From the IMG/VR virus record IMGVR_UViG_3300036781_000204, positions 1 to 55,361 of that record: a stretch of DNA of 55,361 bases; one strand, 5' to 3'. Made by a program: the position numbers and the translations under genes. Below are positions 15,403-50,270 of the stretch, piece after piece (the first letter of the stretch is position 1; each line of letters starts with the position of its first letter). Below the pieces are notes generated by a model. That model was not told the origin of the DNA, did not search any database, and saw only the letters and a list, made by a program, of their open reading frames with translations. This DNA comes from a virus.

Positions 15403-16926
15403 ATGGCATGTCCCCCATCCGGCATTGTAGCCGCCTGCGATATTCCGCAGTTTCTCGTCGATCAAACCCCGCGCTTTGATGAAATCATCATGCAGGACAT
15501 CCGGCCCACTGATGGCTGGCTGTATAACGTAACCACCGGCACGACCGAGATGGGAACCCCCGTCGAAGTCACGCAGGACCGTTTCCGAAGTGTGTTCCCG
15601 AACACCACTAAACCGTGGACTCGGAAGACCGCAAACGGCCCCGGCTGTGTGGGAACTCCTTGCGATATGACTGAGCATCAGATCGGTTGGGGTGCTGACC
15701 GGCTCACATGGTATGCTGAACAGCAATACTGGAACACACCGCTGTTCTGCTATGACCAGGACATGCACATCACCGCGGCGCAGGAGCACATCAGCCAGAT
15801 CATCTCCAAAATCCTAAAGCCCGCTACGACCGCGATCTCGAGCAACTTCCTACGCAAACGCCATCTTCTCTGGTCCTACAAAAAGAACGTGGCCAACAAA
15901 AATTGCGGCTACCTCAACACCGACGGCGAGTTCACCTACCAGTGGAATCTCGATGCCAACGGCGACGAGTCGTATTTCGACTGCTCGATCAGCCCGACCC
16001 GCGTGTTCAAGCTGGTGCCTCAGATGCTCCAGAACCGTTTCAATGACCTGATGCTGATCGGCTATGCCGGTGAGAATCCGTTCAAGGAAACCTCCCCGTT
16101 CATCGAACTCTGCACCGACGTTGACACATGCTGGAGCCTGGACCATCTCGGTGGTCAGCAAGGTGTAGGCGGAGCGGACAATCCAAATGTGCTGGGCAAC
16201 TGGCGCTTTGAGCAGTTCGGCGAGAGCACGAAATACTGGCGCTACGGGTTCTCCGGCCAGATCGGTAACTTCATGACCCGCGTGGACCCGATGGGCCTCC
16301 GGTTCAATTTCATGTCCGACCTTGGTGCCAACGCCAATGGCGGAAATGGAAACCGTTACCGCTATCAGGTCGTTCTCCCCTACGTGAACCAGATCACGAC
16401 TGGCGCGGGCGGCGCAGCCGGACTCGGAAGCATCCCCAATCCGGACTTCTTCAAGGCCCAATACGCGATCAGCCAAATCCATCACAAAATGGGTATGGAG
16501 CTGCTCGTGCCTGACGCGCGACCGCTCAATCCTGAAATGCCGTTCGGCCACCGCGACTTTGGTGGCAAGTGGCAGTTCGTGATGGACAACCTTGGAGCCG
16601 ACCAAAACGGCGTGGTTATCAACAATAAGCGACGCAACAAGGGTCAGTTCATCGCCGACTTCAATTATTATGTGCGTCCGCTGCACTACGAGTTTTTGGA
16701 AGTGTTCTTCCACAAACGCGAGCAGTTCTGCGTTCCTGAAATTGACGTGTGCAGCAACCCGACCGGATACCCGGCCCAGAACTACAACAGCACACTCCCG
16801 AGCTGCCCGTTGCCGGCTGACTTCGCGGGATTGTATCCTGGAGGTGGAGTGCCGACTGGTCCCCAGGACGGACCCATTCCTCCGGAAAATAATCCGAATC
16901 CGGGCGACCCGCATCTGGACCAATAA
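15403..16926 (+). CDS. Major capsid protein
   Basis: 507 residues. Placement after the scaffold, its own leader and terminator, and size around 500 residues point to the major capsid protein of the HK97 fold, although I see no diagnostic motif by eye. It has an unusual number of Cys residues for a capsid protein (for example in CGYLNTDG and VDTCWSL) and ends in a Pro-rich tail. The tail could be an exposed extension. Translation begins at ATG 15403 without a clear ribosome site. Confidence 0.8.
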   Translation: MACPPSGIVAACDIPQFLVDQTPRFDEIIMQDIRPTDGWLYNVTTGTTEMGTPVEVTQDRFRSVFPNTTKPWTRKTANGPGCVGTPCDMTEHQIGWGADRLTWYAEQQYWNTPLFCYDQDMHITAAQEHISQIISKILKPATTAISSNFLRKRHLLWSYKKNVANKNCGYLNTDGEFTYQWNLDANGDESYFDCSISPTRVFKLVPQMLQNRFNDLMLIGYAGENPFKETSPFIELCTDVDTCWSLDHLGGQQGVGGADNPNVLGNWRFEQFGESTKYWRYGFSGQIGNFMTRVDPMGLRFNFMSDLGANANGGNGNRYRYQVVLPYVNQITTGAGGAAGLGSIPNPDFFKAQYAISQIHHKMGMELLVPDARPLNPEMPFGHRDFGGKWQFVMDNLGADQNGVVINNKRRNKGQFIADFNYYVRPLHYEFLEVFFHKREQFCVPEIDVCSNPTGYPAQNYNSTLPSCPLPADFAGLYPGGGVPTGPQDGPIPPENNPNPGDPHLDQ

Positions 16927-20676: not shown

Positions 20677-22542
20677 CTAATCGTATTTCAACTCATGGCC
20701 ACGGCGAATTGCCGTGGCCTTTTTCTTCAACTCATCCATCCAGTCGGATTTGAACTGCACCGGCGCCTGATCGCTGAGACGGTTGATTACAAATCCACGC
20801 CGCTTCGCTCCCTCCAATCCGACAGCCACAGCGTCGGCCAAGTCGGGCGAGCGTCCGGTCTTCAACTTCATGTTCGCCTTGGGCTCGACTTCTATCTTGT
20901 TCTTTCCAACGACGGTCCACTCGCGCTGAGAGAACTCCATTATGACATCTTCAGTTAGGCCGCGCCATTGTGCTGCCTCAACCGCGTGACGGACAGAATA
21001 CCACAGCTCGGTAATGAACTTGGAGTAGTAGTCCTTGCAAATCATTTCAATCTGCTCGGACACTTTCCGGTCTGAAGCATTTCCACCGCAGTCGATGGGA
21101 TTTGTGTAGACCGACCAAAGCCGTCCAAACGCGCTGACGAGTCCTGTTCTCATGCCGGAGTCGTAGAAGAAATTCTCCGGGACAATACCTCCGTCCAGGC
21201 ATCGCTTCATGACGAACTGAACGATCTGATCTTCAGCCTCCTCCTTGCTGCTGGCGACGATTGGAATCACGGTGGTCTCACGAAGCGATATAATGTTTCG
21301 TTTCGAGGTTAGTGACGGTTTCTGACTCACGAGGTTTTCCACGATAACCGTCCCTGGGTCCAGCGAAGTATCCACTTCTTCTCCGAACTCCAGCTCTCCG
21401 TAAACGCAACGATCACCTCCCACCCCCTTGTAAGCGGCGTCCAGAAAGGCAATCCGAGTGCGATTGGAATTCTTCCAGATCGGTTCCTCCATCGCGCGGT
21501 GCTTGATGCACATATTTCGGGTAAGCACGCGCCGGCTGCCTTGGCCGCGCGGCATTTTTCCCTCATCCATCATCGAGAACCAAAGGCTGTCTTTTCCATA
21601 GAACGCCACGTCGCGGTCGATCTGCTCCTGAGTAATGAGTGGAATCCCGAGTTTGCCGTCTAGGTTTGGTGAATCGCTCCCCGGAAGTTGGATGCAGATT
21701 CCTTGCGGTCGGCGCGTGGCCCACGTTTTTGTTCCCGGTCCTTGGTCGATACCTCCATCCCACCCACCCAGTTCAGCGGACGGCTCACAGAATACGCCGA
21801 GTGCGTCCGTAGTGTCTTTCGGGTTTCCCATCCCGATACCTTTGAAGTCGGGGTTTTTATCGAGGTTGGAAATCGCATCCACGAACACGCGCGGGAGCAG
21901 GCTCAACTCATCAGCCAACAGCCTGACCCGCTTGTTCTTCACCCCTGCGAAGTCGCCGAGGCCGACCATATCGTTTCCCTTTTTACAGGGCACACCGAGC
22001 AGACCATTGCGGAAGTCCCGCCCCTCGTCGGATTCCGACTTATCGCTGGTGATGATGCGCTGCCTTGACTCGATGATGTGACCCGGAAGCCACGATCTTA
22101 ACTTCTTTGCGAGCGAGTGGTGGCGCTTGATTTCTCCCCAGATGCGTTGCTCCAGCATCTCTCGCGTGGTGGAGCAGCACAGGACCGTGGTGCAGTCTGG
22201 AAACACGTAATAATCCGCCAGCGCATCAGTAGCCGATTCAAAACTCTTACCGCTGCTGGCGGGACCAATGACCCCGATGGAGCGGTATTTGATGTAGCAG
22301 TCGAGCTGGAGCTCATTCCATTTGTGCCATTTCTTGTGAGGCCAAAGCAGCTTTTGAAAATTTATGAAGTGCTCAAACATCCCCAGCCCGATGGTTTGAC
22401 CATGCTTTCCCTTCCACTGGCCACCCTTGGCGAGCATACTTCTCTCGATGTGAATCGGGTCTGCGGTGGTCGGCCAGTTGAGCCCGTATTTAACAAACGT
22501 GGTGGGCGCACGGCGAACGTAGGGCGCTGAAGGAGTAGCCAT
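20677..22542 (-). CDS. terL: Terminase, large subunit
   Basis: 621 residues. Walker A is GPASSGKS at 93-100 and Walker B is around LLADE at 208-212, giving the packaging ATPase. The nuclease domain has the first acidic strand IAFLDAAYKG (Asp368), then FFYDSG, and a C-terminal SPDLADAVAVGLEG with the last acidic residue, the RuvC-like layout. Together these cut and pump the DNA into procapsids. It stands alone on the minus strand between two rightward transcripts. I did not recognise a small terminase. Its own 3' end carries the terminator of the opposing lysis transcript. Confidence 0.93.
   Translation of the reverse strand: MATPSAPYVRRAPTTFVKYGLNWPTTADPIHIERSMLAKGGQWKGKHGQTIGLGMFEHFINFQKLLWPHKKWHKWNELQLDCYIKYRSIGVIGPASSGKSFESATDALADYYVFPDCTTVLCCSTTREMLEQRIWGEIKRHHSLAKKLRSWLPGHIIESRQRIITSDKSESDEGRDFRNGLLGVPCKKGNDMVGLGDFAGVKNKRVRLLADELSLLPRVFVDAISNLDKNPDFKGIGMGNPKDTTDALGVFCEPSAELGGWDGGIDQGPGTKTWATRRPQGICIQLPGSDSPNLDGKLGIPLITQEQIDRDVAFYGKDSLWFSMMDEGKMPRGQGSRRVLTRNMCIKHRAMEEPIWKNSNRTRIAFLDAAYKGVGGDRCVYGELEFGEEVDTSLDPGTVIVENLVSQKPSLTSKRNIISLRETTVIPIVASSKEEAEDQIVQFVMKRCLDGGIVPENFFYDSGMRTGLVSAFGRLWSVYTNPIDCGGNASDRKVSEQIEMICKDYYSKFITELWYSVRHAVEAAQWRGLTEDVIMEFSQREWTVVGKNKIEVEPKANMKLKTGRSPDLADAVAVGLEGAKRRGFVINRLSDQAPVQFKSDWMDELKKKATAIRRGHELKYD
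20697..20724 (+). terminator. Rho-independent terminator for lysis transcript
   Basis: A perfect 9-bp stem pairs 20697-20705 with 20711-20719 around a 5-base loop, followed by five T. It lies within the 3' end of the terminase gene on the other strand, and closes the rightward transcript that ends at 20676. Confidence 0.9.
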
Positions 22543-37703: not shown

Positions 37704-39458
37704 TTAAATGTCCGGGTCGATTGGTGATTTTTTAGGTGGCACTTTCCAGTTATTACTACGCAGTTCGTTCATGAGTCTATCAGCCTCCTTCTTGGTCATG
37801 TTGGTGGTTTCGTAGCCGAATTTCTTCAGCGTGTTACAGGTTCCAGGGCCAGCCAGTCGATTCTTGAAACGACGCATCGTCTCGACAAACAACTGCTTAG
37901 CTTGAGGGTATTCGTAGTCGTCAGGATTGATACCTGCCCGACGCAGCAGGCCTTGTTGTTTCTCACTCAGCTTCTTTCCAATGGTGTCGCCGCGAGCGCG
38001 CGCCGGCTGAATATCATAAGCATCGAACGGGTCCACTTTGACCGTAGTGAATTTAGACCGCGCCACGATCTTGCCCCTCCGACCTTCCGAGTCTCGTTTC
38101 GCTCTATCAATTCGCTTCTTTATGATCTCCTCCGAGTCCTCCAGCAAGTCAGAAACTCGGAACACATCTTCTTTTTCCAGCGCCTTCTTTTTCGCCAGCG
38201 CCAGCACTCGGTCAGTCACGCGACCACCGAGAATATCCGCCACGGTAATCAGCTTATGCCGGCCGCTGTTGCCCACGAAATCGCAAACCAGTAATCCCTT
38301 TTTGTAGGAGGCGTTGATGGCTTCCTTACGAGCGTTGGCGGTTTCGATTCCGTCCACCAGTTTACGGAGCGGACGAGTTCCACGTCCGATGATCTGGGTG
38401 TAAAGGCTGCGGCTTTTTGTGGCACGCGCCATGACGACGACTTCCACTTCTGGACAATCAAACCCCTCAGTGCAGATGCCGACGTTCACGAGAACCTGAA
38501 GTGTTCCATTTTTGAACTCCTCAAACATTGAACGCCGCTCACCCTTGGGAACCTTGTCCCACACCGCCGCCGCCATGCCTGGTTTCACCCGGTTCATGAT
38601 CTCAGCGAACCTCTGGGCCTGAATGACGCTCGTGCAGAACACCAGCGTCCGCCTCGGATTTCCGTGCTTCACGATCACTGATGCCCAATCACTCACTGGA
38701 GAATAATCCAGGCGGTGCAGGGGCAGTCCCGATGACACCTCTAGAGTCGGCTGAATCATTCTCTGCACTGTGTCCTCGTCCTCCATTACCTCAGACAACT
38801 GACCGAGATTCAGATCTCCGGCAGTCGTCTCGATGTGTGAGTAGTCGAGCCCCTGAACGGGAATCATCATCTGGTCGATGGGCACCAGCCACCCATCCAT
38901 GATTCCGTCTATGATGTCGTATTCGTAAACCGTCTCTTTGAAGATTTGACCGAGCGCTTCGTTGTCCGCGCGGTCAGGGGTCGCCGTCATCCCCAGCATC
39001 TTCATGCTGGAATTTTGGAAGTAGTAATCGACAACCTTCTTGAAAGACGGGGCGGGAAAGTGGTGGCCTTCATCTCCCACCAGTAATCCGAAACTGTTCG
39101 GATTGAATTTCTTCATTCGACCACCGTTGAATCCGGCGTTCTGGGTTTGGATGGTGCTGATGATGACGGGCACTTTACTAAAGATTGAGTCGTTGGCCTT
39201 TTGGTCGGCCATCTCGATCTCACATTCAAGCCCGGTGAATTCTCGAATGGTGTCACGCGCTTGATAGATCAGCGTGTCGCGGTGGGCGAGTACGATGGTC
39301 CGCGCGGGCTGGATTCTCTTGATGACTTCAGAGATGATGCAAGTTTTCCCAAGCCCGGTGGCCAACACGCCGAGCACTGAATTAACCCCTCGGTCCCACG
39401 CCTCAAAAATACAATCCGTGCAGTCGGACTGGTAGTCCCTCATTTTCATGACGGCCAC
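37704..39458 (-). CDS. SF2 DEAD/DEAH-type helicase
   Basis: 584 residues. Motif I is ATGLGKT (33-39), motif II DEGH (129-132), motif III TATP (158-161) and a late QIIGRGTR is motif VI, so it is a superfamily 2 helicase, related to UvsW or type III restriction-type translocases. It may remodel forks and recombination intermediates. The start is one of three Met codons (39458, 39449, 39443) in the overlap with the HNH gene; I keep the longest. The C-terminal 200 residues are charged and not assigned. Confidence 0.85.
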   Translation of the reverse strand: MAVMKMRDYQSDCTDCIFEAWDRGVNSVLGVLATGLGKTCIISEVIKRIQPARTIVLAHRDTLIYQARDTIREFTGLECEIEMADQKANDSIFSKVPVIISTIQTQNAGFNGGRMKKFNPNSFGLLVGDEGHHFPAPSFKKVVDYYFQNSSMKMLGMTATPDRADNEALGQIFKETVYEYDIIDGIMDGWLVPIDQMMIPVQGLDYSHIETTAGDLNLGQLSEVMEDEDTVQRMIQPTLEVSSGLPLHRLDYSPVSDWASVIVKHGNPRRTLVFCTSVIQAQRFAEIMNRVKPGMAAAVWDKVPKGERRSMFEEFKNGTLQVLVNVGICTEGFDCPEVEVVVMARATKSRSLYTQIIGRGTRPLRKLVDGIETANARKEAINASYKKGLLVCDFVGNSGRHKLITVADILGGRVTDRVLALAKKKALEKEDVFRVSDLLEDSEEIIKKRIDRAKRDSEGRRGKIVARSKFTTVKVDPFDAYDIQPARARGDTIGKKLSEKQQGLLRRAGINPDDYEYPQAKQLFVETMRRFKNRLAGPGTCNTLKKFGYETTNMTKKEADRLMNELRSNNWKVPPKKSPIDPDI

Positions 39459-40615: not shown

Positions 40616-40852
40616 TTATTTTACCTCCTTGTTCTGGTGGAAGCTGCGTTCGATCTTTTCGCCACATCCCATGCAGTGACCGTTAGCCACCATGAAGTGA
40701 CTGCACGGAAAGTGCTGGCTTGCCGATCTTTCCAGTTCGAGTGCGGCCTTGGATAATTCTTCGGCGCACTTCTGGATGTATTCCAATCTTCCAATCCGGC
40801 GCGCGGACAATAATTTTGTCCACGCATCTTCATACTGCTGTCGTCTGTCCAT
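40616..40852 (-). CDS. Small Cys-rich protein
   Basis: 78 residues from ATG 40852, chosen because it has the local leader AAAGGACAG. The C-terminal half has C and H residues (FPCSHFMVANGHCMGCGEK), suggesting one zinc site. Function unknown. It overlaps the nuclease gene's end by 23 bp. Confidence 0.55.
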   Translation of the reverse strand: MDRRQQYEDAWTKLLSARRIGRLEYIQKCAEELSKAALELERSASQHFPCSHFMVANGHCMGCGEKIERSFHQNKEVK

Positions 40853-41702
40853 GATTCTGTCCTTTCCATTGTTTAAACTGTTCGCAAAACTGAGATACTG
40901 AGCAATAATTCTCGCAGCGCGGCCTCTCGGCAGGACGCACTTCGATTGAGTAAGCTGACGGACTGGCTTGGGACGCGATGAATTGGCCGGCATCCAGTTT
41001 TGTGGCGAGAACTCTGGACGCTTTCACATTTCCCTTCTTCATCACCGCGTATTTTTCCGGCCGCTCCCACATTTCGTCGGGGGCACATTGGGGAAGCAGT
41101 CCGTTCCGGGCAGCGATGTGTAGCGCCATCCGGTTGCTCATCCACAGCTCCGTCATGTTCTTTTCCCAGATGCGAACGGGCAGCACCCGAACCTGCGACT
41201 GGGGATATGATTTGTCGCGCGATGCTTCAGCCACACTCCAATCTCGGAAGATCGCTATGATTCTCAACTCCTTCACTTCGACACCATAGGCGTCAGCGAG
41301 ATATTTGTAGCAGTTGAGCTGCTGCTCCCACTCCGGCTTCACGCCGTCCCTCACCGCCCATAGTGAAGTGAATTTGTAATCGTCGATGGCTTTGTCGGGT
41401 TCGCAGTAATCGATCTGGCCGGAGATTTTCTTCCCCTGGAGCTCGACGATGCAGCGCTCCTCAACAATTCCTCCGTTCGATGATCGCCGGAGAACTTCGT
41501 GACCAGCGCTGCCCATGAGTTGCCACAACCGATCACTGGCGTCTTCCTCCAGTTCGTCTTTGTGGATTATTTCCAGCGCAGAGATGCGCGGTGGTTTGAC
41601 GAGCTCGGTGACGCTGAAGTCAGCGCCGCCTTTGTCGTAAACCGAGTGACTGACTGCCCGAACTAGCGGCTCGGGCAAACCGAATTTATTTGTGATTTTC
41701 AT
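40830..41702 (-). CDS. PD-(D/E)XK nuclease (RecB/Cas4-like)
   Basis: 290 residues. A GSAGHEVL segment at 64-71 includes the His of the Cas4/RecB motif, and the active site is visible as D98 in GQIDYCEP with D108-x-K110 in IDDYKFTS, the D...D-x-K core. The C-terminal end has CENYCSVSQFC, a cysteine cluster that could hold an iron-sulfur or zinc site. It would trim DNA ends for recombination. It is co-directed with a Rad52/Mgm101-type annealing protein, so it may supply the resection partner of that system. Confidence 0.8.
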   Translation of the reverse strand: MKITNKFGLPEPLVRAVSHSVYDKGGADFSVTELVKPPRISALEIIHKDELEEDASDRLWQLMGSAGHEVLRRSSNGGIVEERCIVELQGKKISGQIDYCEPDKAIDDYKFTSLWAVRDGVKPEWEQQLNCYKYLADAYGVEVKELRIIAIFRDWSVAEASRDKSYPQSQVRVLPVRIWEKNMTELWMSNRMALHIAARNGLLPQCAPDEMWERPEKYAVMKKGNVKASRVLATKLDAGQFIASQASPSAYSIEVRPAERPRCENYCSVSQFCEQFKQWKGQNHGQTTAV

Positions 41703-42626: not shown

Positions 42627-43535
42627 TTATTTATTCTTCAGTTCTTCCATAGTAAATACTATGCCAGCCACCTCACGGATTTTAGACACCGCGTTCCTGC
42701 ATGTCTTCAGCAGCCACTCGTAGTGCTCTTTATTTCCACGTATCTGCTCCACCTTTTTCTCATTGCAGTAAAAGAACAGTGCGCTCGAAAGCGCCAACAC
42801 GGTGCGTTGCTGATTGGCTGTCCCGCCTTCCAAATGTGTCGGCCTTTCAATGAACTTCTGGAACTGAAGCACTGGGCTGGTTTTGGGTAAATTGGCCAGC
42901 TCGTTAAACTCTGTGGCAAATAAGTCTGCCGTGTCGGGTTCGACAGTTCTTAGAAGCGCCAATGGAGCGAGTATCCTTCCAGAGTATTTCTGGGAAGGCG
43001 CGTGGTTGGCACCCAGTATTTCAATGAGGGAGACGAAGTGATTCTTCATAAGGTTCGCCACCGCCATTCCCTGTGGGTTGCTCATCGCTCGGTCGCCAAA
43101 ACTAGTCACCATTAGCGCGAGTATTCTAGAGGCGCTGGCTATGGAGGAACTATACATAAATCCGTTGATTCCTAGCTGCTCCCCCAATGCCCGCTTACGA
43201 CCAATATCAAAGGTATCTATGGTTTTAAGGCTTTTGTTCACGTTCTCTGGAAGGTCCCACAGGACAATCATTGAGATCGTCACACCACTCCTAACTACAG
43301 CCGCTAAGCGATGTTGGCCGTCGAGTAGATTGCCATCAACGTCAAATGAGATGCCTTGGCCTGTCAGGGACCAATTTCCACCTTTCATATCCATTGCATA
43401 AATTTTAACCGTTCGTTCGTTCAATAGTCGTTGACGGAACTTCCCGTCCACTTGAGACCTTGAATGCTTTTCCAGTATTTCCATTGCCCATTCGGGTGTA
43501 ACCTGACGTATTTCCGATCTTGGTTTGCTGCTCAT
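42627..43535 (-). CDS. ParB-related nuclease-domain protein
   Basis: 302 residues from ATG 43535, which has a related leader (AAAGGGACAAT). The ParB/sulfiredoxin-type motif is VDGNLLDGQHRLAAVVRSG at about 67-85, the D-G-Q-H-R core used for CTP/nucleotide binding and DNA clamp loading in ParB proteins. The C-terminus is helical and lacks a known DNA-binding domain that I can name. PRTRC cassettes include a ParB-related gene, so this protein may belong with the E1/E2-type genes 2 kb upstream. It could also be the binder of the five genome-wide palindromes, which is untested. Confidence 0.7.
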   Translation of the reverse strand: MSSKPRSEIRQVTPEWAMEILEKHSRSQVDGKFRQRLLNERTVKIYAMDMKGGNWSLTGQGISFDVDGNLLDGQHRLAAVVRSGVTISMIVLWDLPENVNKSLKTIDTFDIGRKRALGEQLGINGFMYSSSIASASRILALMVTSFGDRAMSNPQGMAVANLMKNHFVSLIEILGANHAPSQKYSGRILAPLALLRTVEPDTADLFATEFNELANLPKTSPVLQFQKFIERPTHLEGGTANQQRTVLALSSALFFYCNEKKVEQIRGNKEHYEWLLKTCRNAVSKIREVAGIVFTMEELKNK

Positions 43536-43573
43536 AATTGTCCCTTTTTTGGTTTTTGGTTTTAATTTCCGGC

Positions 43574-44734
43574 TCAAAAATCGTAGTGATCTTCGGCTGC
43601 ATCCAGTGCAAGCCGGAAGTTCTTCATGAGTTCAATTTCAGCGTCCGGCTTACGCACGCCGTTGTAGCTCTCCTCGACTTCGTAATTCTTCACCCATCCG
43701 TAGAGCTTCTTTTTATCTAGCTCTCCGATGGGTGTTCCCTGCTGGGCACCGAATGGAACGCAAACAGCCTTCCACCAGAGCACGTCCGGCTGACGGTCGC
43801 CATCCATGAACGCCTTCAGCTCCGCCATGATCGAGTCATACTGCTTTTTGACCGTCGGCACGTATTGGTTCGGCAGGTCTTCCAAGGCCTGCGTGTCGGT
43901 TAGCCACCCATTCGCCGTGAAGTATTGCATGGCAGATGTCCTGTAATCGGACAGAGCGGCGAGGAACCGGAACCGCTGATCTTTGTCCGCCTGCGCCGGG
44001 GGTGCCATTTGGGGCGCAACATCCTCAGTTCTGGCCGCTGGCCTTGAAGCGGGCTGGGGGGCTGGCGCTGCGTTTGGACGCTGGGTGGTGTCTTGAGACC
44101 CTCCAGACCGTCCTGGGGCATTGCGTGGACTTCGGCGCCTCTCGCTTTCCCGTTCCCACCACCCGGCACACCAGTCTTTTTTCCACGCTTGGAGTCCAAT
44201 TCCGAGTTCCTTGGCACACCGACGTAGGGCGGCAGTTTTTGCCCCCTCCACGGCGTCACCATAATTCTGGGTCTGGTTTTTCTTGTAGTAAACCATGTCG
44301 CCGACGGCCTCTGCCACAAAACAGCCGCGGACGAGCAACATTGCTTCGACGTAAATTCGGGTTGCGTCATCTCCGGTGGATGTTTTGAAGTCCTCACCCC
44401 ATCGGCTGCGGGGAACGATTGCCCACTGGCCCAAGCCGAACACGTTGTTCAACCGATCACGCAAAAAAGCGTGTTCGATGTAGATCAGGTTTTCTTTTCC
44501 GCCGGCTCCCGGCTTGAACGCTTCATCCGGAAAGTCGGCCTTCAGCGCCGCGCATTCTTCCGGGGTTAGGTTCAACATGCTCGCGCGCTCATACGCCTTC
44601 AGCGTCAGATTGGCCACTGCGTCCACGCGAGCCTGGGCCGGCGTCGTGGGGGCTGCGGGTGCTGGCGGTGGAAGGGCTGGGTCGCGGAGCTGCACTGCGG
44701 ACGATTCAACTGGGATTGCATCTTGTTCGTTCAT
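43574..44734 (-). CDS. Single-strand annealing protein (Rad52/Mgm101-like)
   Basis: 386 residues from ATG 44734. After a Pro/Ala-rich start, the annealing core is LIYIEHAFLRDRLNNVFGLGQW and DMVYYKKNQTQNYGDAVEGAKTAALRRCAKELGIGLQAWK, which resembles the Mgm101/Rad52-type fold with a basic helix for ssDNA. A Pro/Ala linker and a helical end follow. It would anneal single strands during phage recombination. The PD-(D/E)XK nuclease lies further down the same operon, so the pair fits a classic exonuclease plus annealase set. Confidence 0.75.
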   Translation of the reverse strand: MNEQDAIPVESSAVQLRDPALPPPAPAAPTTPAQARVDAVANLTLKAYERASMLNLTPEECAALKADFPDEAFKPGAGGKENLIYIEHAFLRDRLNNVFGLGQWAIVPRSRWGEDFKTSTGDDATRIYVEAMLLVRGCFVAEAVGDMVYYKKNQTQNYGDAVEGAKTAALRRCAKELGIGLQAWKKDWCAGWWERESERRRSPRNAPGRSGGSQDTTQRPNAAPAPQPASRPAARTEDVAPQMAPPAQADKDQRFRFLAALSDYRTSAMQYFTANGWLTDTQALEDLPNQYVPTVKKQYDSIMAELKAFMDGDRQPDVLWWKAVCVPFGAQQGTPIGELDKKKLYGWVKNYEVEESYNGVRKPDAEIELMKNFRLALDAAEDHYDF

Positions 44735-45114
44735 TTTGTTTTGTGTGTTTCGGCGTGGTGGTATTTGCAGAGCCACGTCACTTGAAGTGGTTTGGAATAA
44801 TCGTCATGGTGCGCCTCCACTATTGGATTGCCACACTCCTGACATGGGGATTTAGAAAGAGTGCCGTTTCTTGCAGCGTCTCTCGCGATACGGCGGGCGC
44901 GCATCTTCACTCGGAGTGATGGCGTGCGCCAATATCGTGAGAAATTCCGCAGTTCTCTTGCTCTGTTTTCGGGGCGGGAACGCCAGCGCCTTTTATTTCG
45001 TCTGGAGTGCGCCTTGGTCTTTGGGGAGCTCTTGGAATTTTTGAGCGGCCGGCCTTCGATTTTTCTCCTGATTCGATACTCTTTGGCGTAGGCACGTCTC
45101 TGTTCGACTGTCAT
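44731..45114 (-). CDS. HNH-like endonuclease, phage type
   Basis: 127 residues. A basic N-terminus (RRNKRRWRSRPENRARELRN) precedes CQECGNPIVEAHHDDYSKPLQVTWLCKYHH, a zinc pair followed by an HHDDY active-site strand and a WLC..HH end, typical of a recurrent small phage HNH protein. Unlike the other HNH genes it may have been co-opted as a phage function. Its stop overlaps the annealing protein's start. Confidence 0.8.
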   Translation of the reverse strand: MTVEQRRAYAKEYRIRRKIEGRPLKNSKSSPKTKAHSRRNKRRWRSRPENRARELRNFSRYWRTPSLRVKMRARRIARDAARNGTLSKSPCQECGNPIVEAHHDDYSKPLQVTWLCKYHHAETHKTK

Positions 45115-45264: not shown

Positions 45265-46371
45265 TCACCCCCCACCGTAACCGCTCCAGTCCGGGTCTCC
45301 CGGCATGGATTCAGTTGAGGGAGCGTCGGTGATTGAGGGTTTATCTCCAGCTCCGATAGCCTTTGGAGCTGGTATCGACTGCTCCTCAAACTCGGCTGCG
45401 ATAATCTCACTCGCGAAATTCGGCATCTCGCGTTCCAAGTCATCCACATCGCACTTATGATGCAGGCAAGCCTTGAGAATAACTTCGTGAGCCCCCAGGG
45501 AAAGGTCGTTCATGGCATCCTGAACTTCCTCGAGCTCGAATTGAGAATGCTTGATCTCGAAGACTATCTCCTTCCACGCCGCCCGCGCCCTCTGCCATAG
45601 TGGAACTGTCTCGGACGAAAACGTCGAGTGAGTGTTTGAATTGGAGTGATAGTCGGGAAACATGCTTGGCGAGGCCGACACCTCCGGTTTCTTGATCTCG
45701 ATCATGTTCAATTTCCAGATCTCGGGAAATGGAACCGTCGATGGTTCGCACATCTGACGACGTGCCGTGATGCTGCGAATGTCTTTCGGAAGGAACTTTT
45801 GGAACTGCACCGGACACTCGGCCATGATGTCGCCAGTATCCCAGAACCAGCTCAGGTCCGGCTCGAAGCACAGCCCCTTTCGATAGAATCGCGCATGAAT
45901 GTCGTGCAGCTTCTCATCCATCTTTCCCACGGTGATGTGGATTCCATCCTGACCTTTTTCATTTTCCAAATCCACGCCGGACTGGAATGCGCTCATTGAG
46001 CAATGGTGATGAACCGTGCCGAAGTAAAGCCACGTCGCATCGAACTGCTCGCGTTGCTTTTTCGACTCATCGTTCACGACTTCACGTGCCGACATTCCGC
46101 TCTTGGCTTCCTGGGGATATGCCCACGCAGCCCACGTCTGCTCCTGCACGTTGACGTAGAGGCGAACTTGCGACTCGCTTTTGTAGGTATCGTAAGTCCA
46201 TTTGAAGAACGCCAGAACTCGCTGCCATTCCTCTTTTGGTATATTCGGCCCCACCCATGTCAGAGATGCCGACGTTTTCTCGATCTTGTGCTCGAACGAG
46301 CACTCGAATAGTCCATCGATCTCCTCCGACTCGGAGATGACCTTCTTATTTTTATCATGTTTCATTTTCAC
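45265..46371 (-). CDS. JAMM/JAB metalloprotease (PRTRC-A/DUB-like)
   Basis: 368 residues. The JAMM zinc motif HxH-x7-SxxD is exact: H122 and H124 in GTVHHHC, then S132 and D135 in FQSGVD. A catalytic Glu upstream cannot be fixed by eye. JAMM enzymes cut isopeptide bonds of ubiquitin-like proteins or process their precursors. The C-terminal half is helical with no named domain. It stands last in the block with E1-, E2- and ubiquitin-like genes. The start is GTG 46371 with leader AAAGGACAG; an ATG at 46365 would be just as reasonable. Confidence 0.85.
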   Translation of the reverse strand: MKMKHDKNKKVISESEEIDGLFECSFEHKIEKTSASLTWVGPNIPKEEWQRVLAFFKWTYDTYKSESQVRLYVNVQEQTWAAWAYPQEAKSGMSAREVVNDESKKQREQFDATWLYFGTVHHHCSMSAFQSGVDLENEKGQDGIHITVGKMDEKLHDIHARFYRKGLCFEPDLSWFWDTGDIMAECPVQFQKFLPKDIRSITARRQMCEPSTVPFPEIWKLNMIEIKKPEVSASPSMFPDYHSNSNTHSTFSSETVPLWQRARAAWKEIVFEIKHSQFELEEVQDAMNDLSLGAHEVILKACLHHKCDVDDLEREMPNFASEIIAAEFEEQSIPAPKAIGAGDKPSITDAPSTESMPGDPDWSGYGGG

Positions 46372-46411
46372 TGAGTCTGTCCTTTCTTTTTGTTTTGGTT
46401 TTTTAATCGCC

Positions 46412-47275
46412 CTAACCTTCCGAATCCAACCGAGAAGTGGTTCCCGGAGAAATCCTGTCCAGAAGAACTCTCAAGTTTGCCTTAACCTCGCGCTGGTTCC
46501 AGCTCCAATTGAATTCGTCATTGTCACTGGCTTCGTGGTTTGAGTATTCATAGCCCCCGTCGATTTGATCTGGCTCAGGAACGGCAATCCAGCTAACATT
46601 ATTGCTAATACTGTCATCCATGAGATCACGAATGCTATCCATGAAATCCTCCCAAGTATCGGACTCATCTGCTTCTCGGATGATGTCCTGCTCCGTTAGT
46701 TCCACACTTCCGGAACCTCTCATCACTACCGAGTAATCAGCCGTTCCTGACTCGGGTTGGGCCGCCTCAAACGAGATGCTTAAATAGGACGGTCTCGGCG
46801 CTACGCTGACCGGACGTGGGCTTGCTGGGGCTGGCGACGGCCAACCTGGAAGCTCTGGTGGGTCGTAGTTAAACTCAATCCATTTCTTGATCTGTGCATA
46901 TGACACACAGTCATCGGGGATTGTGATGTTGAGGTGAGCCAGAATCACGGCGCGAACCGTGTTGTTCTGGGGAGCCACCTTTATGAGGTTGATGACGCTG
47001 GTCGGAAGCACTCTGTCAATCGTGCATTTCTGAACCTGCGCGACCACCGCAGGATTCGCGGCCGGGTCTTCCTTTGGAAGTTCCGGCGGTGGTGATGCGC
47101 CAGGGTCAGAGTTCACGATATTGTCGATTCGAGTGATGGTCTCCGACACCTGTTCGGCGAGAGACCGTGCGAGCGACAAGTCACCATTGTCCGGTGGTGG
47201 CAGGGGGTCGGGAGTATATATATTCGTAATAGGCTCCGGGGGCTCATCCTCCCAATTATCAAACTCGTTACTCAT
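46412..47275 (-). CDS. Unrecognised protein of the ubiquitin-like cassette
   Basis: 287 residues. The first 75 residues are acidic and Pro-rich (YTPDPLPPPDNGD), then a helical part (VINLIKVAPQNNTVRAVILAHL), a Pro-rich linker and an acidic C-terminus with DTWEDFMDSIRDLMDD. No zinc or catalytic residues are visible. It sits between JAMM and E1, overlaps the E1 stop by 8 bp, and has the AAAGGACAG leader inside E1. It could be a target, adaptor or inhibitor of the pathway; I cannot tell. Confidence 0.5.
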   Translation of the reverse strand: MSNEFDNWEDEPPEPITNIYTPDPLPPPDNGDLSLARSLAEQVSETITRIDNIVNSDPGASPPPELPKEDPAANPAVVAQVQKCTIDRVLPTSVINLIKVAPQNNTVRAVILAHLNITIPDDCVSYAQIKKWIEFNYDPPELPGWPSPAPASPRPVSVAPRPSYLSISFEAAQPESGTADYSVVMRGSGSVELTEQDIIREADESDTWEDFMDSIRDLMDDSISNNVSWIAVPEPDQIDGGYEYSNHEASDNDEFNWSWNQREVKANLRVLLDRISPGTTSRLDSEG

Positions 47276-47984
47276 CTTGCTGTCCTTTCATTTCGGTTTC
47301 TGGTTCGGTTGTTTTAAGGGCGTCGGAGATTTTGAATGTCTCCAGCTTGGTCATGTTCGCCACGAGGCGATACGGCAGGCTGCCTCTGGTCTTTTCGCTG
47401 AACTTGTCAGCCTTCAAATGCCAGAGCGCAAACAGATGACCGGCCAGTGAAGCGGCCAGCGAATTACTCGTGACGAGCTGAAGGTTCGCCTTCTGAGCCT
47501 CGCCGGTGCAACCGGCCGACCGGGATCTCGGGTCGCCACTATGGTCAGTGAGGATGTCGGGGAAGTAAACCCTCGGGTCGATCTTTGTCTCCTTCCACGC
47601 AGACTCGTAGTAATACGCCTCCGCGGAGTGAGTCTCGTTCGCCGCGAAGATGGCGCGACACTCGTGACGGTCACACTCACCGAGCGCAGCTCGACGAGCG
47701 GCGTGATTGTCCACGCAGACGATTATCCAATCGCTTTGGCGGAACTCCAGCAGTCCCTCACAAAACCATTCCGGTCTTGATTGGCACTGGTAGCGTTCAG
47801 CGAGTGCATCGGCCTTGTTCCGACCCACATCCTTTTGATTGAACAACTGACGGTCGAGGTTTTTGCTCTCGAGCGTGTCGCCGTCGATCATGGTGATGAG
47901 TTTCGGTGAAGTGAGCAGCGTGAGAGCTGGCACCAACCAGGAGCCAACGCCTCCGCATCCAATGATATAGATATTTCCTTTCAT
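47268..47984 (-). CDS. ThiF/E1-like activating enzyme
   Basis: 238 residues. The Rossmann start IYIIGCGGVGSWLVP (G9, G11, G12, G14), D34/D36 in MIDGDTLE, N42, R45 and K57 (DRQLF, DVGRNKAD) and D92 in CVDNHAARRA are the adenylate-forming core of ThiF/MoeB/E1 enzymes. A candidate thioester Cys is C159 in AGCTGEA. It would adenylate the C-terminus of the ubiquitin-like protein and pass it on. The size matches prokaryotic E1-like proteins rather than MoeB with a rhodanese. It is coupled to both neighbours by overlapping codons. Confidence 0.88.
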   Translation of the reverse strand: MKGNIYIIGCGGVGSWLVPALTLLTSPKLITMIDGDTLESKNLDRQLFNQKDVGRNKADALAERYQCQSRPEWFCEGLLEFRQSDWIIVCVDNHAARRAALGECDRHECRAIFAANETHSAEAYYYESAWKETKIDPRVYFPDILTDHSGDPRSRSAGCTGEAQKANLQLVTSNSLAASLAGHLFALWHLKADKFSEKTRGSLPYRLVANMTKLETFKISDALKTTEPETEMKGQQDE

Positions 47985-48316
47985 ACGATTATTTGTGTGT
48001 CCCGATTTCGTTGAAGGACGCCGACGATTGTCACGGCCGGATTCGGCTTAGTGAGATCGCTGTTCATCCTTTCTCTAGTGCGATAAATGATGGCATCGAA
48101 CAATTCCAGATCGTGCATTGATATGTATTGAGTCCTTACCGATGTAGACATTATGAGAAGGACGGCCGTGGCCGTGTGTCCAAAGACAACCCTCCCTATC
48201 TCGTCTTGGATTTGAAGTATTCCTGATTTCAAGGAATCCTCAATGGCAGTCCGATTATCAATTCGATAGACGGCACTATTAAGCGCCTCCACCAGTTCTG
48301 GATTTGGTTGGCTCAT
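47981..48316 (-). CDS. Hypothetical protein of the ubiquitin-like cassette
   Basis: 111 residues, helical and beta mixed (EDSLKSGILQIQDEIGRVVFGHTATAVLLIM). Not recognised. It overlaps the E1 start and the E2 stop by four bases each, so it is translated as part of the cassette and may be a small structural or regulatory subunit. Confidence 0.5.
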   Translation of the reverse strand: MSQPNPELVEALNSAVYRIDNRTAIEDSLKSGILQIQDEIGRVVFGHTATAVLLIMSTSVRTQYISMHDLELFDAIIYRTRERMNSDLTKPNPAVTIVGVLQRNRDTQIIV

Positions 48317-49050
48317 AGCACGATGTATTTAAGGATTGCGGTTGATACCTTATTACAAAGTCTCCACCATTCACCTTCGATTGGCAGAGTTTGAAATCCA
48401 TCTTTGAGAGGCTTGAAGTGGAAGAATTTGGAAGTGATTCCGTTGTCGTCTCCGTAATACAAATCCGTGTTATACGGCGCGCTGCGGAACTGGGCGATGG
48501 CCTTCTCCACCGACTCAAACGCGGTTGGAGAGACTGAGCTGTATTCCCCGTTGCAAATCTCACCCGTGTCATAGATGTTCGCCATCGGCATCCGGTAGGC
48601 GTTTCCATCTTTGCTGAAGGCGAATAGATACTGCTTCAGCACTCGAGCCCCGCTAGGTCCCGATGCAACGTGAGCGACGAATCGAATCAGTGGAGTGTCG
48701 CGGCCAGCCAGGGCTTGCTCAACATTCCATGCAATCGACAATTTCGGGTCCGACTTCGCGAACGTGGGAACCAGTTGGGCGTCCTCGCCTTCACCGGAAG
48801 CCTTGAACGTGCTTTTGAAGACGATCTCCGCCAGCGGAATCGTCCAGTATTGTGTGCTATCCTTCGGGTCGATGGACACATTCACCACGCCACACCCAGG
48901 CATCGTGAACATATTCTTGACCTTTAATATCGCACCGGATGAGAACGCTTTTCCAAGCGCTTCTCCAGGGTCGATTTCGTCCTCCGTGACGGAGCGACGA
49001 ACCATTCTACCGTCGGCGCTGATCGCCCATTCTGCTTTTACAATTGGCAT
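48313..49050 (-). CDS. E2-like protein (PRTRC-B / Prok-E2_D type)
   Basis: 245 residues. The C-terminal part has YRMPMANIYDTGEICNGEY, the asparagine-tyrosine and G-x-I-C-x-G arrangement of PRTRC protein B and the prokaryotic E2 family D, with C166 as the candidate thioester Cys. A helix-rich and beta part follows with the SVEKAIAQFRSAPYNTDL segment typical of the family. It would receive the ubiquitin-like protein from E1 and conjugate it. Leader AAAGGACAG sits at 49054-49062, after a stem-loop that separates it from the ubiquitin-like gene. Confidence 0.75.
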   Translation of the reverse strand: MPIVKAEWAISADGRMVRRSVTEDEIDPGEALGKAFSSGAILKVKNMFTMPGCGVVNVSIDPKDSTQYWTIPLAEIVFKSTFKASGEGEDAQLVPTFAKSDPKLSIAWNVEQALAGRDTPLIRFVAHVASGPSGARVLKQYLFAFSKDGNAYRMPMANIYDTGEICNGEYSSVSPTAFESVEKAIAQFRSAPYNTDLYYGDDNGITSKFFHFKPLKDGFQTLPIEGEWWRLCNKVSTAILKYIVL

Positions 49051-49070
49051 AATCTGTCCTTTTTAAATGG

Positions 49071-49104
49071 AAAAACCGGCCGCAAGGTTTCGCCCCACGG
49101 CCGG
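49071..49104 (-). terminator. Stem-loop between ubiquitin-like and E2-like genes
   Basis: CCGGCCG (49076-49082) pairs with CGGCCGG (49098-49104), a 7-bp GC-only stem with a 15-base loop. On the leftward transcript it is followed by five U. It could partly terminate the mRNA so that the ubiquitin-like protein is made in excess over its enzymes, or act as a stability or processing hairpin. Other gaps of this operon also hold hairpins but without a T-run, so partial termination here is possible but unproven. Confidence 0.55.
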
Positions 49105-49121
49105 AGTTATTTTTGTTTTCG

Positions 49122-49367
49122 TTACGCCGCCACGAGTTCGAGCTCGTTGGCTTTCGTATTCGCAGCGGTCTCAACAAGCACCTCTGCGTCCGGCGGAACG
49201 ATGGCCTCGTCCGGCATCGTGACCCCGTTAATCATGAGGTTCACGTTGTCGCCGTAGCCCAGTTGGGCACGAAGGTCTTCGTCGCGTCGGATGGAACCGA
49301 TGGTGATGGGCGAGGAACTCTCGAGAGGTTCCACGTCCACTCCATATTTAACTCTGCATTTGAACAT
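49122..49367 (-). CDS. Ubiquitin-like beta-grasp protein
   Basis: 81 residues, close to the size of ubiquitin. The pattern of strands and turn (VKYGVDVEPLE, then ITIGSIRRDEDLRAQLGYGD, then VNLMINGVTMPDEAIVPPDAEVLVET) matches beta-grasp ubiquitin-like or ThiS/MoaD-type proteins, with a strand, a helix and two late strands. The C-terminus is ANTKANELELVAA, so it has no terminal di-glycine. Cleavage before an internal residue, or recognition without Gly-Gly, would be needed for conjugation. It leads the E2-E1-JAMM genes. It does not use the AAAGGACAG leader; the start has AAAGGATT. Confidence 0.7.
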   Translation of the reverse strand: MFKCRVKYGVDVEPLESSSPITIGSIRRDEDLRAQLGYGDNVNLMINGVTMPDEAIVPPDAEVLVETAANTKANELELVAA

Positions 49368-49826: not shown

Positions 49827-50270
49827 TCAATACTTTGCGAACTCTCCGTGGAGAGTTTTTATCCTTTCCTCAGCATACTGTTTGGCCTCGGCCAATTTTT
49901 TGAAGTATCGAACCTTATCCCTTTTTCCGTCTTTAGTGATCTGGACGATGAACTTTTTGGCGCCTTTATGCCAGTGAACACATTTTACTCCCGTAGTATT
50001 GTTGGATAAACGCTCTCGGTTCATTTGATTTTGAGACTTGGTGCAGAGACGCAGGTTGGACTTTCGGTTATCCAACTTATTTCTGTTTTTATGGTCTCGC
50101 TCCATTTCATAAGGACAGTCAATAACGTCCCAATGCATGTGGTGTGACAACCCGTCAACCTTTCTCGCGGCATATCTCCCGGTGAAGTGCCACTTGAATT
50201 TGGAGAGTCTTTCAAAATCATCGTCATCGACGATTGCCTCCTTTCCTTGTGTTAATTTTATAGTTTTCAA
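49827..50270 (-). CDS. HNH homing endonuclease with AP2-like DNA-binding part
   Basis: 147 residues. An HNH_3-type module covers YAARKVDGLSHHMHWDVIDCPYE, MERDHKNRNKLDNRKSNLRL and QNQMNR. The C-terminal part, GVKCVHWHKGAKKFIVQI, has the AP2-like three-strand DNA-binding form. The start appears to be TTG (50270), a rare start that overlaps the upstream stop; the ORF has no ATG nearby. It is the fifth HNH-class gene in the genome. Confidence 0.85.
   Translation of the reverse strand: MKTIKLTQGKEAIVDDDDFERLSKFKWHFTGRYAARKVDGLSHHMHWDVIDCPYEMERDHKNRNKLDNRKSNLRLCTKSQNQMNRERLSNNTTGVKCVHWHKGAKKFIVQITKDGKRDKVRYFKKLAEAKQYAEERIKTLHGEFAKY

Follow-up and report, generated by a model that had tools for sequence, protein, structure and literature searches.

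Reversible conjugation of ubiquitin-like proteins is familiar from eukaryotes and bacterial defence systems, but to our knowledge has hardly been studied in phages. The closest described systems are the PRTRC cassettes, plasmid sets made up of the proteins A, B, C, E, F, ThiF and ParB that adjoin dnaN, dnaG or ParB, and the type 6d systems of Iyer et al. 2006, in which a ubiquitin-like modifier (Ubl) with a highly conserved C-terminal glycine is accompanied by an E2-like protein with a conserved cysteine and an absolutely conserved downstream histidine, and by a JAB peptidase with an N-terminal domain that has a conserved arginine and tryptophan (PMC1779556). Bil systems are defined by an E2 with a CEHH motif and an E1 with both an inactive and an active adenylation domain (IAD and AAD; PMC11354881). 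Here we describe a six-gene cassette in IMG/VR virus record IMGVR_UViG_3300036781_000204, the whole 55,361-nucleotide stretch of which is referred to as the window; related loci and genomes carry L and G numbers. As judged from sequence comparisons, the cassette is a real, conserved ubiquitin-like conjugation set and a divergent relative of PRTRC and type 6d; what is new is its own gene order, two extra proteins of its own and an alanine-ended modifier, the kind of system being known from PRTRC/6d. It is probable that its Ubl, E2, E1 and JAMM proteins would constitute a self-contained cassette for conjugation and deconjugation, all chemistry of which we infer. An initial annotation of the window had proposed such a phage-borne PRTRC-type set, and this core reading is now supported by family conservation, profile–profile matches and the predicted structure of the Ubl.

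The six open reading frames are co-directed on the minus strand at 45265-49367, as initially annotated, in the 5' to 3' order Ubl, E2, X111, E1, X287 and JAMM (Table 1), and adjacent genes share 4-8 bases at E2/X111, X111/E1 and E1/X287, an arrangement like that of a translationally coupled operon. The E1 matched Pfam ThiF (9.1e-18) and NCBIfam PRTRC_ThiF (1.5e-12) as a single sequence. The other three core proteins had weak or no matches as single sequences, and families were therefore built for profile comparison. Invariant in 20 E1 sequences are G9, G11, G12 and G14 (GxGGxG), R45, K57, D92 and C159; the adenylation-site signature of the E1/ThiF superfamily (GxGGxG, Arg, Lys, Asp) is thus present, with all the core residues that had been ascribed to this enzyme, and C159 aligns with the conserved cysteine of PRTRC_ThiF (hhalign probability 99.7, E 6e-27). 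The JAMM protein matched PRTRC_A weakly by itself (0.0018), while its family profile aligned with PRTRC_A and the JAB proteins of cultured phages at an hhalign E of 1e-11, with E66, the histidines, S131 and D134 in register. All five residues are invariant in 20 sequences, so that the E...H-x-H-x7-S-x2-D signature is complete, including the exact H121-x-H123-x7-S131-xx-D134 motif reported at the outset. The JAMM N-terminal region has two invariant tryptophans (W49 and W58), a point of comparison with the type 6d JAB.

For the E2, the single sequence gave a Pfam Prok-E2_D value of 0.013, whereas 11 of 19 family members match that domain (best 3e-4) and the family profile aligned with PRTRC_B (hhalign probability 96.9, E 1.4e-10), with Cys166 aligned. 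Among 29 E2 sequences, PRTRC_B and cultured-phage members included, there is no variation at N158, C166 or G168, and the window protein has the pattern N-[ILV]-x3-G-x-[ILV]-C. In UBE2D2 the HPN-to-Cys stretch runs from N77 to C85, and we take the window stretch N-I-Y-D-T-G-E-I-C to have the Asn-to-Cys spacing, the glycine and the isoleucine of canonical E2s. AlphaFold modelled the E2 with confidence (predicted local distance difference test, pLDDT, 87.5), and the best structural match of the model was an uncharacterised phage protein (7.6e-9). A 621-residue uncharacterised phage protein, BFVD A0A6J5P0Y8, was also matched weakly (2.1e-3, over 221 alignment columns) and could be a fusion of an E2 with another cassette enzyme. 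The best VIA matches of the model, to a p32-like protein and an actin capping protein (Z 4.7; root-mean-square deviation 3.4 and 5.4), were taken as noise.

The Ubl had no sequence-library match in Pfam, NCBIfam and PHROG-type scans of the single sequence. Its predicted model (pLDDT 84.6) is a beta-grasp fold with structural matches to ubiquitin and SUMO as well as to the ubiquitin of Bacteroides (best Foldseek value 3.3e-5; VIA Z ~8.5-9), so the 81-residue protein models as the ubiquitin fold that had been anticipated for it. It was also correctly noted to lack a C-terminal Gly-Gly; the conserved end is Asn-x-Lys-Ala, within a motif (E66-T67-x-x-N70-x-K72-A73) that is conserved in 21 domains. 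Most family members end E-T-x-A/C-N-x-K-A, many of them stopping exactly at KA, while others extend by a few residues; the window version reads NTKA followed by an 8-residue tail, which a peptidase would have to remove. The sole Gly-ended family member, that of L125, ends STKG and resembles PRTRC_C (GTKG). In six relatives (L121, L122, L124, L163, L166 and L170) two Ubls lie head to tail in one gene with the junction just after the C-terminal motif, which suggests that the motif is both the functional end and the site of JAMM processing. Where CBASS operons include Cap2 and Cap3, the conjugated bacterial cGAS has a conserved C-terminal Gly or Ala, and replacing Gly by Ala left conjugation partly intact (PMC10097602). 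These ends make an alanine terminus chemically plausible, and by analogy activation of a terminal alanine would be a plausible, and likely, answer to the missing di-glycine. A ThiF-type E1 with a beta-grasp partner is also common to sulphur carriers of the ThiS/MoaD type, in which case the Ubl C-terminus would be converted to a thiocarboxylate for cofactor or tRNA/base modification. We regard that chemistry as highly improbable here in view of the E2 and JAMM partners, the tandem Ubl precursors of the relatives and the Ala rather than Gly-Gly end, and no sulphur-donor gene was identified in the cassette.

Several observations weigh against the conjugation reading. Searched against the PDB, the E2 model had no significant Foldseek match and UBC folds were not among the matches listed, nor did the merged E2 profile match UBC by sequence; no histidine downstream of Cys166 is invariant, unlike in the described type 6d. 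The E1, a single protein of 238 residues, is without a separate catalytic-Cys domain, and the Ubl had no significant profile match to PRTRC_C (hhalign probability 1-2%). Given that no UBC fold was found for its model, the E2 label rests on homology and motif: of the initial assignment as a PRTRC-B type E2 with a candidate Cys166, the relationship to PRTRC_B and the invariance of the cysteine stand, but the UBC fold was not confirmed by structure search. A kinship of the Ubl with PRTRC_C and phage poly-Ubl proteins was set aside, the profile comparison not being significant; the shared VKYG start and KG/KA end are a lead only.

If the conjugation reading is right, the JAMM peptidase would trim the Ubl precursor, or split the tandem di-Ubl of the relatives, after Asn-x-Lys-Ala. 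The E1 would then adenylate the C-terminal alanine and carry the Ubl on Cys159, and the E2 would accept it at Cys166, its Asn158 standing in for the asparagine of the HPN motif, and link it to a target amine; the same JAMM peptidase could reverse the bond. Target choice would probably be given by X111 and X287. Neither matched the PRTRC_E or PRTRC_F profiles. Relatives of X287 share a conserved C-terminal core (EYGxAxYSVxxxG), and our guess is that it is a candidate adaptor or E3-like factor. In some di-Ubl phages a second, weakly X287-like protein follows JAMM (L121:9266-10270, L122:9213-10178, L124:9260-10264 and L170:8647-9471).

Table 1. Genes of the cassette and its downstream neighbours in the window.
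Feature	Position	Strand	Evidence
Ubiquitin-like modifier (Ubl), 81 aa	49122..49367	-	ubiquitin-type model; motif conserved in 21 domains
E2-like protein, 245 aa, P155-x2-N158-x7-C166-x-G168	48313..49050	-	invariant residues, hhalign, Prok-E2_D
X111, small fast-evolving protein, 111 aa	47981..48316	-	position between E2 and E1 genes conserved
E1/ThiF-like adenylating enzyme, 238 aa	47268..47984	-	Pfam ThiF, hhalign to PRTRC_ThiF, invariant residues
X287, 287 aa, conserved C-terminal core	46412..47275	-	kept in relatives
JAMM/JAB metallopeptidase, 368 aa	45265..46371	-	E66, H121, H123, S131, D134; hhalign to PRTRC_A/JAB
HNH-type endonuclease, encoded between the JAMM and recombinase genes	44731..45114	-	phrog_2340 7e-20
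Mgm101/Rad52-type annealing recombinase, downstream of cassette, candidate target	43574..44776	-	Pfam Mgm101p 3.2e-16

Single-protein scans of viral contigs with the E1 and E2 gave no matches, and no nucleotide relatives of the window were found in INPHARED. Relatives were reached through a conserved 507-residue window protein (15403-16926), possibly a capsid protein, which led to 80 related viral loci. The E1 was present in 8 of 50 related phage records and the E2 in exactly the same eight, all with the order Ubl-E2-small gene-E1-X287-JAMM; a 20-sequence E1 profile found no further E1 carriers among the 50. The identical distribution and the recurring order indicate more than a chance association. 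The six-gene order was kept in the window and 19 phages in the first two search rounds and then in further contigs, and scans with the JAMM and E1 profiles added loci with the same order wherever the contig was complete enough, X287 not being recognisable in L166. About 27 viral contigs carry the cassette, a number that includes the window as well as L145, a phage-like contig binned as Sneathiella. Eighteen are of the window's phage type, and in eight of the others neither its 507-residue protein nor its terminase has a match, from which we conclude that the cassette crosses phage lineages (at least two). A genome scan added 12 contigs of metagenome-assembled genomes (MAGs), most of them Verrucomicrobia, of which L136 and L138 look chromosomal. 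On the Verrucomicrobia MAG contig L136 (6279-13163) genes for a RadC-like JAB protein and the toxin AbiEii come after the cassette, the latter with a putative AbiEi partner. On the Limisphaerales MAG contig L138 (6009-17748) ~1 kb separates a cassette copy from a set of Wadjet genes (JetD/JetC/JetA), and the region is a possible defence island. The genes are therefore found together, in the same order, in ~26 other viral contigs and in MAG contigs.

The core cassette genes have ratios of nonsynonymous to synonymous substitution (dN/dS) of 0.05-0.39. In the close pair L103/L104 the values were 0.05 for Ubl, 0.07 for E1, 0.09 for JAMM, 0.20 for E2, 0.23 for X287 and 0.53 for the equivalent of X111, which indicates that the genes are functional with the core under purifying selection, and that X111 evolves fastest.

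In the window, where a weak terminase large-subunit match lies at 20677-22542, a helicase gene at 37704-39458 and an exonuclease gene at 40830-41702, the cassette runs on the strand opposite to a long plus-strand gene block and adjoins DNA-metabolism genes. Across the family the first gene that can be recognised on the downstream side is in many cases a single-stranded DNA recombinase, drawn from three different families: Mgm101/Rad52 occupies the same position in the window and four relatives (L107-L109 and L120), RecT is found in others (Pfam 1e-29 to 1e-41), and an AAA_24 protein lies a few kilobases downstream in L121 and L110. A downstream recombinase of varying family suggests a target in DNA metabolism, and with modest confidence we propose a role for the cassette in DNA replication or recombination. 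The target itself may tentatively be sought among replication or recombination proteins, possibly in the downstream recombinase. Eukaryotes regulate replication and recombination by ubiquitin-like modification of PCNA and Rad52. That phages might run a full ubiquitin-like code of their own, with an alanine-ended modifier and sometimes polyubiquitin-like precursors, governing genome replication and recombination, is a speculative extension that we think unlikely.

Two suggestions of the initial annotation were not borne out by the comparisons. The nearby gene described as ParB-related (42627-43577) matches only phrog_5931, a family with no assigned function, and has no credible Pfam match, a GQHR-type motif being visible by eye. 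The idea that the cassette marks virion proteins found no support in the window family, whose gene neighbourhood suggests DNA recombination. In Salmonella phage Arash the E2-like and E1-like genes carry the label "structural protein", but this is only an annotation, in a different phage, and the window cassette lies opposite to the long plus-strand block; modification of virion proteins is accordingly rated improbable.

The main rival to a replication or recombination role is that the cassette is a weapon in phage–host or phage–phage conflict, conjugation serving to inactivate a protein of a competing phage or of host defence (Bil, CBASS Cap2-like), or to disarm a host Ubl system. The patchy occurrence among close relatives, the chromosomal-type Verrucomicrobia MAG copies near Jet and AbiE genes and the fast-evolving X111 would fit such a use, as would the anti-phage function of known bacterial Ubl systems (PMC10097602, PMC11354881). 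However, PADLOC matched nothing beyond a generic E1 domain, the location near recombination genes is maintained across phage lineages, and the defence-island link consists of two contigs and would also fit a mobile element. We thus consider a conflict role rather unlikely.

Outside the conserved cassette, the HNH gene downstream of JAMM had no BLAST match in eight cassette-bearing relatives; a second HNH-type gene, called by eye at 49827-50270, brackets the cassette together with it. In G059 (C1:50410-54078) the terminase match falls in three pieces within one 1236-residue open frame, a possible intein or insertion.

The view that such a set is unusual on a phage genome was half right, given the other viral contigs and the presence of E2-D/JAB/ThiF sets in cultured phages. 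Burkholderia phage BgVeeders33 (33 kb; L181:2776-6696) has a complete PRTRC C-F-B-A-ThiF set, all above the NCBIfam cut-offs and mostly annotated as hypothetical. E2-D, JAB and ThiF genes occur together in Salmonella phage Arash, Vibrio phage D69 and Bacillus phage vB_BauM_KLEB27-3, with E2-D matches below the Pfam cut-off; these sets comprise the same three enzyme families in the order E2-JAB-E1, unlike the window. Upstream of its E2-D, JAB and ThiF genes, KLEB27-3 has a gene of four 57-residue Ubl repeats (L183:718-1401; 89-100% protein and 79-84% DNA identity), each ending GVKG. X111 and X287 relatives were not recognised in the cultured-phage sets, for which no systematic search was made. 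If the "structural protein" labels of Arash (L177:1519-4536) derive from virion proteomics, its E2-D-like and ThiF-like proteins may be packaged. In crAss-like phage cr85_1 (L179:2933-5857) ThiF lies beside JAB, and two genes before JAB is a 218-residue protein with an N-terminus that appears beta-grasp-like by eye. MoeB and ygdL matches in "Acinetobacter phage MD-2021a" were disregarded, MoeB lying among ordinary host metabolic genes. No paper describing the phage cassette or the cultured-phage sets was found in the part of the open literature searched. The cassette would bring reversible conjugation of ubiquitin-like proteins into phage biology beyond host defence and would provide a minimal E1-E2-JAMM-Ubl system in which the modifier ends in a residue other than glycine, and the function of PRTRC-type cassettes would become testable in phages, some of them cultured.

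Among known systems, CBASS Cap2/Cap3 resembles the cassette in E1/E2 conjugation of a Gly or Ala C-terminus and in JAB-type reversal (PMC10097602), but Cap2 is an E1-E2 fusion that conjugates a CD-NTase, not a Ubl. Bil and polyUbl (6e) systems share the Ubl, E1 and JAB, and tandem Ubls occur in some window relatives; the BilB CEHH motif and a two-lobed BilD are missing from the window family, with its single-protein E1. Type 6d is closer in combining Ubl, JAB, E1, an E2 with a conserved cysteine and additional proteins, although the window family mostly lacks a C-terminal Gly, has no conserved downstream E2 histidine, carries other extra proteins and is phage-borne. The cassette is not a member of PRTRC, since the window falls below the NCBIfam cut-offs (PRTRC_A, 17.9 against 101.8 bits; PRTRC_ThiF, 47.4 against 144.75 bits; no PRTRC_B or PRTRC_C match in the NCBIfam scan), the order differs (E-C-F-B-A-ThiF versus Ub-E2-X-E1-X-JAMM), PRTRC_E and PRTRC_F were not found in it and the Ubl ends in NxKA rather than GTKG. 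With PRTRC it nevertheless shares homologous E1, E2 and JAMM proteins with aligned catalytic residues, a Ubl partner and a link to DNA-metabolism genes.

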